Positions 46,232 through 46,275 of a stretch of DNA of 64,000 bases are shown in pieces. The position numbers and the translations under genes were made by a program. The stretch is from assembly GCF_009389715.1 (NCBI RefSeq), contig NC_052407.1, positions 9,086,475 through 9,150,474 on the forward strand, in the 5' to 3' direction. Below the pieces are notes generated by a model that worked only from the letters and a program-made list of their open reading frames with translations, did no database searches and was not told the DNA's origin. Position 1 is the stretch's first letter; each line of letters begins with the position of its first letter. Source of the DNA: Phoenix dactylifera. Its lineage: Eukaryota; Streptophyta; Magnoliopsida; Arecales; Arecaceae.

Positions 46232-46275
46232 AAAGATGCCTCTAATCTTGTACCAAAAAAAAAAAGATGCCTCTA
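46232..46275 (+). mobile_element. 18-bp poly(A)-tailed insertion with 13-bp TSD at the CK2 start
   Basis: AAAGATGCCTCTA occurs at 46232-46244 and exactly again at 46263-46275. Between them is ATCTTGTACC followed by eight A (46245-46262). This is the structure of an extremely 5'-truncated LINE or SINE insertion by target-primed reverse transcription. It adds 31 bp (a +1 shift) and creates the ATG at 46236 that now opens the CK2 frame. Confidence 0.75.

Follow-up and report, generated by a model that had tools for sequence, protein, structure and literature searches.

A probable truncated LINE-type retro-insertion re-framing the start of the CK2 alpha gene

Exon 1 of the CK2 alpha gene carries, in its start region, 31 added bases, which are probably the product of a truncated LINE-type retro-insertion that re-framed the start of the coding sequence; the mechanism, the common donor and the effect on the gene are what we infer from the sequence. 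The whole stretch of DNA that was analysed, hereafter the window, is 64 kb long, and the site within it is composed of the following features, all read from the sequence:

46232-46244, plus strand: target-site duplication, copy 1, AAAGATGCCTCTA; contains the ATG at 46236 and is directly preceded by TG
46245-46254, plus strand: insert, putative templated part, ATCTTGTACC
46255-46262, plus strand: insert poly(A), 8 A, the run extending into 3 A of copy 2
46263-46275, plus strand: target-site duplication, copy 2, AAAGATGCCTCTA; contains the ATG at 46267

The initial annotation had described a perfect 13-bp duplication around an insert with poly(A), and this description is exact, both copies and the spacer having been read directly. 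The spacer (46245-46262, 18 bp) consists of ATCTTGTACC followed by A8, and the whole A run (46255-46265) counts 11 A, the last three of which belong to copy 2. The first A of ATCTTGTACC may have been added at the 5' junction. With at most one mismatch allowed, AAAGATGCCTCTA occurs at two places only within the 64 kb, both at the CK2 site.

A blind scan of both strands of the 64-kb window for A-runs of at least 5 next to an exact duplication of at least 11 bp (period 14-60, complexity-filtered) returned two sites, namely the CK2 site and a site at 60901-60941 that was unknown beforehand, and this result was unchanged at thresholds from 9 to 13 bp. The duplication exceeds chance, with two sites against none at 11 bp or more in 60 dinucleotide shuffles; lowering the threshold to 9 bp gave the shuffled sequences 0.12 sites on average and at most 2. 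A relaxed scan (at most two mismatches, period up to 60) returned five matches: three micro-insertions, a match at 58213 (minus strand) and a match at 2125 (minus strand), which was set aside as A/T-rich. Its controls gave a mean of 0.12 and at most 1 match in 60 shuffles, none with ACC before the run, and 0 matches at decoy distances on the real sequence; the shuffled sequence is poorer in A-runs than the real one (mean 310 versus 365). The additional features are:

60901-60941, plus strand: second micro-insertion, AAAGAGGACATGATA, then ATGTACC and A4, then AAAGAGGACATGATA; 15-bp duplication (exact scan)
8159-8210, minus strand: third micro-insertion, AAACAAGCAATGACA, then TCTTACC and A15, then AAACAAGTAAGGACA; duplication 13/15 (relaxed scan)
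58194-58259, minus strand: candidate for a different kind of short retro-insertion, insert of 32 nt with CTGC at its end, A6, duplication 13/14, target GAG/TAAAA

The third site, which is an older and weaker case than the other two, was first met at an 18-A run (8188, minus strand) during a one-by-one check of A-runs preceded by CC; it is supporting rather than independent evidence, because the score limit of the relaxed scan was set at its level after it had been seen. The candidate at 58194-58259 sits between the last two CK2 coding blocks. A first-scan match at 27359-27663 (minus strand) was dropped as a diverged direct tandem repeat (27258-27686, units of about 140 bp with 80.7 % identity and a distance of 291 bp).

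The three micro-insertions have the same anatomy: 7-10 bases ending in TACC, then poly(A), at TG/AAA targets (the slash marking the putative nick). The CK2 site and the site at 60901-60941 have TGTACC in common directly before the poly(A), and the chance that two A-runs of at least 5 match in their last 6 bases is 0.0007 (365 runs in the window). The targets are ATG/AAAGATG at the CK2 site, CTG/AAAGAGG at the second and CTG/AAAC (TG/AAACA) at the third. Window-wide, TG precedes AAA in 236 of 2697 cases; its presence at all three sites is unusual, though it rests on few sites. The second site, with the same TGTACC and TG/AAAGA, together with the weaker third one, therefore supports the earlier reading of the CK2 insert as a severely truncated retroelement copy.

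The poly(A) closes the insert on its 3' side and immediately adjoins copy 2; the duplication lengths (13, 15 and 13-of-15 bp) are within the approximately 7-20 bp of L1-type insertions; and a T-rich primer end is present on the bottom strand at the nick (top strand TG/AAAG, TG/AAAG and TG/AAAC). A one-sided poly(A), duplications of 13-15 bp starting with A, a T-rich primer and a constant end are marks of L1-type target-primed reverse transcription. At the CK2 site, a LINE-type endonuclease would have nicked the bottom strand at TG/AAAGATG, within the gene's start region. The T end so released would have served as primer on the poly(A) of an RNA ending in ...TCTTGTACC-A(n), reverse transcription would have stopped after approximately 9-10 template bases, and joining to a second nick would have duplicated 13 bp, giving the 31 added bases.

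The same bases could also be ascribed to repair of a staggered break, in which fill-in of a 5' overhang duplicated 13 bp, an 18-bp filler was added from a nearby template or from none, and the poly(A) arose by chance or by later slippage. In plants, paired nicks are known to give rise to small tandem duplications, according to PMC8355091, which cites earlier work. In the window, four further near-perfect tandem duplications have spacers shorter than 5, and there are also 11-12-bp repeats whose spacers are unrelated and have no poly(A), which may be due to chance or to repair. Furthermore, a stretch of intron 1 (about 46705) matches the CTCTAATCTTGTA junction at 12/13 with one gap and could have served as a repair template (p = 0.03 within 1 kb and 0.66 within 300 bp, both post hoc). 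However, no good local template exists for the second site (p = 0.56 and 0.19), and a second event with the same TGTACC-poly(A) and TG/AAAGA is not predicted by break repair. Nor do the longer repeats of the window argue for it: eight exact repeats (period up to 80, complexity-filtered) have at least 13 bp and a spacer of at least 5, and in six of them the spacer matches the flank in register (identity at least 0.71), identifying diverged tandem repeats, so that none besides the other two, the poly(A) sites, has an unrelated spacer. The common TACC-poly(A) end at TG/AAA targets thus favours target-primed reverse transcription by one element family, and break repair is considered improbable. 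Tandem duplications of 21-29 bp that are recent, nearly perfect and free of filler lie at 55602-55644, 14099-14149 and 62272-62327.

The footprint of a departed DNA transposon would likewise leave a duplicated target and a short filler. Common plant DNA transposons usually make target duplications of 2-11 bp, and a footprint would not predict poly(A) and a common TACC end on one side of the filler; this explanation is therefore very improbable compared with a retro-insertion.

A donor was sought within the window. With at most one mismatch, ATCTTGTACC occurs at 7 places (3.8 expected) and exactly at one only, the CK2 site itself, while TGTACCAAAA occurs at 15 places (6.1 expected) and exactly only at the two sites themselves. 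No longer copy with a duplication and a GTACC-A(n) end was found in the window (score at least 11, lengths up to 8 kb, a search run without shuffle control). Ten template bases are too few for the identification of an element. The following feature shows LINE-type insertion in this genome:

18454-20507, plus strand: 5'-truncated LINE, insert 18469-20492, with zf-RVT and RNase H domains, ending TTTTAGCC-A17; flanks GYGGCATGGTGGCGG, 14/15

This local LINE is not the donor of the micro-insertions, because its 3' end is TTTTAGCC. A run at 29580 (minus strand, AGTACC-A6) was not counted, as it has only a 13/15 match 3.3 kb away, and a run at 21572 (GGAACC-A10) has no duplication better than 11/13. 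A repeat pair at 52893-53043 (plus strand) and 58980-59130 (minus strand) was rejected as a SINE donor, its ends being without TACC-poly(A).

Other repeats were noted in the window. The pair just mentioned is an inverted pair of dispersed repeats, 74 % identical over 152 bp, with both members inside the CK2 gene; on the opposite strand it looks tRNA-like by eye (box B-like GGTTC...) and is perhaps a SINE. A Ty3/gypsy-type LTR retrotransposon with gag, RT, RNase H and integrase domains occupies approximately 33800-44800, its repeats (34163-34984 and 43958-44776) being 97.2 % identical, and contains a 28-bp tandem array near 40594-40850. Searches of the window with Rfam (at gathering score) and with ARAGORN (bacterial code) gave 0 families and 0 matches, respectively.

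The gene that received the insertion has coding blocks for a full CK2 alpha kinase. Residues 1-331 of the probe, a maize CK2 alpha sequence, were matched in order by tblastn from 46473 to 59577 in eight alignment blocks:

46236-46558, plus strand: exon 1 of CK2 alpha, counted from the present in-frame ATG (A at -3), read from the sequence; donor GG/GTAAGA at 46559
46473-46475, plus strand: canonical CK2 alpha start (MSKAR), in-frame ATG; C at -3, T at +4
46473-46559, 49588-49725, 53645-53869, 54499-54660, 56776-57099, 57721-57810, 57960-58181 and 59518-59577, plus strand: the eight kinase coding blocks (tblastn)

The blocks 56776-57099 and 57960-58181 each contain an intron. The catalytic part begins at 46473, MSKAR being the start of the maize probe, and upstream of it the CK2 frame is free of stops from 46233 on and encodes a hydrophobic extension.

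The state before the insertion was simulated by leaving out the 31 bp by script and reading the frames again. In this state, the ATGs at 46225, 46229 and 46236 occupy three different frames, and that at 46229 (T at -3) is the only one that opens the CK2 frame (MKDASIRLF..., 100 residues to the exon end), the open reading frames from 46225 and 46236 counting 43 and only 12 codons, respectively. With the insertion, the ATG at 46236, whose context is the better one (A at -3), opens the CK2 frame, giving 108 residues to the exon end, and 10 residues precede DASIRLF instead of M-K, a net gain of 8 residues. The ATG at 46267, which is the second copy of the third ATG, opens 12 codons, and the two other upstream ATGs now read as follows:

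46225-46245, plus strand: upstream open reading frame MNERCL, 6 codons now and 43 without the 31 bp; C at -3
46229-46387, plus strand: open reading frame from ATG 46229, now 52 codons, out of the CK2 frame; T at -3

The shortening of the frame from 46225 from 43 to 6 codons is due to a TAA that arises at the insertion junction. Reading with and without the 31 bp confirms the frame argument of the initial annotation, in which 46229 is pushed out of the CK2 frame and 46236 brought into it; the N-terminal extension is also kept open as it had stated, since 46236 reads through the poly(A) into the extension in the same frame as MKDASIRLF. The further claim that the insertion created the start codon holds in part: the insertion swaps which ATG reads CK2, but the ATG at 46236 already existed in the target and was re-framed rather than created. 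As the target already has ATGs in all three frames, any open insert, whatever its length, would keep one of them in frame.

Judging from the start contexts, the extended kinase would be expected from 46236 at least as well as before. That 46236 yields an N-extended kinase, and with no loss of efficiency relative to 46229 earlier, has about an even chance, and most of the product may nonetheless be the short MSKAR form (C at -3). It is quite possible, at somewhat under an even chance, that the insertion is real and leaves translation unaffected, the kinase starting mainly at the MSKAR ATG (46473) through leaky scanning, reinitiation or downstream transcript starts. Consistent with this, the maize probe begins at MSKAR, the short upstream open reading frames at 46225 and 46267 would permit reinitiation, and among the matches listed (60 of 86) solved CK2 alpha chains align with the exon-1 product at residues 72-108 only. 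However, the extension frame stays open across the 31-bp insertion and on to 46472, the context of 46473 is poor (C at -3, T at +4), and Arabidopsis CKA1 and CKA2 have hydrophobic extensions before MSKAR. Arabidopsis CKA1-3 are reported as nuclear in PMC4112627, according to which the plastid form has its own targeting sequence.

Of most interest is that the micro-insertions recur and that every one of them was cut to 7-10 bases. Tentatively, and with more doubt than confidence, this genome could carry a class of micro-retro-insertions in which a LINE nicks at TG/AAA and its reverse transcription of an RNA ending in TCTTGTACC-A(n) regularly halts after 7-10 bases; a stop at the base of a 3' terminal stem-loop is proposed, which would account for the narrow size range. 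Such a class, if real, would add approximately 25-35 bp per event, too short for repeat annotation, so that its members would be counted as ordinary small indels. Some small insertions in plant genes that are ascribed to break repair would then stem from aborted retrotransposition; a fixed 6-base end, poly(A) and a TG/AAA target would mark them, and they could be counted in any assembled genome. They would also repeatedly shift frames, supply genes with new N-termini and alter upstream open reading frames, the CK2 alpha start swap being one instance, in which a start region with ATGs in three frames would have absorbed the insertion and left the conserved enzyme readable but altered at its N-terminus.

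Earlier work already describes retro-insertion, 5' truncation and insertions of poly(A) alone. Within a limited search of the literature, no class was met whose members recur, are all shortened to 7-10 bases and have a constant end and target: among the matches listed, none contained the strings TTGTACCAAAA or TGTACCAAAAAA, and a search for extremely short truncated insertions gave no match, neither of which proves that such insertions are unpublished.

The three sites resemble the 5'-truncated L1-clade LINE insertions of plants in their poly(A) 3' end, their A-starting duplications of 13-15 bp and their 5' truncation, but differ from them in having only 7-10 template bases in all three cases and a putative donor represented by a short 3' end. 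According to PMC3747384, poly(A) terminates nearly all L1-clade LINEs of flowering plants, and in one lineage the 3' end is conserved and contains a hairpin. The target is TG/AAA here, versus the L1 consensus 3'-AA/TTTT-5' given in PMC3219598. Like plant SINEs ending in poly(A), the micro-insertions have a poly(A) tail and LINE-type duplications, but they have no SINE body, and RNA polymerase III promoter boxes are absent from their 7-10 bases. Among the L1-dependent insertions of the human NF1 gene, the duplications are 10-17 bp in most rows of the table of PMC3219598, which includes one poly(T)-only case. Among poly(A)/poly(T)-only insertions in human disease genes, that of NF1 exon 25 is likewise a severely truncated retroelement with a duplication within a gene; as described there it consists of approximately 120 T with no body, whereas the present insertions have a constant short body and a short A run, and the one in CK2 alpha lies in a plant gene whose frame is kept open.
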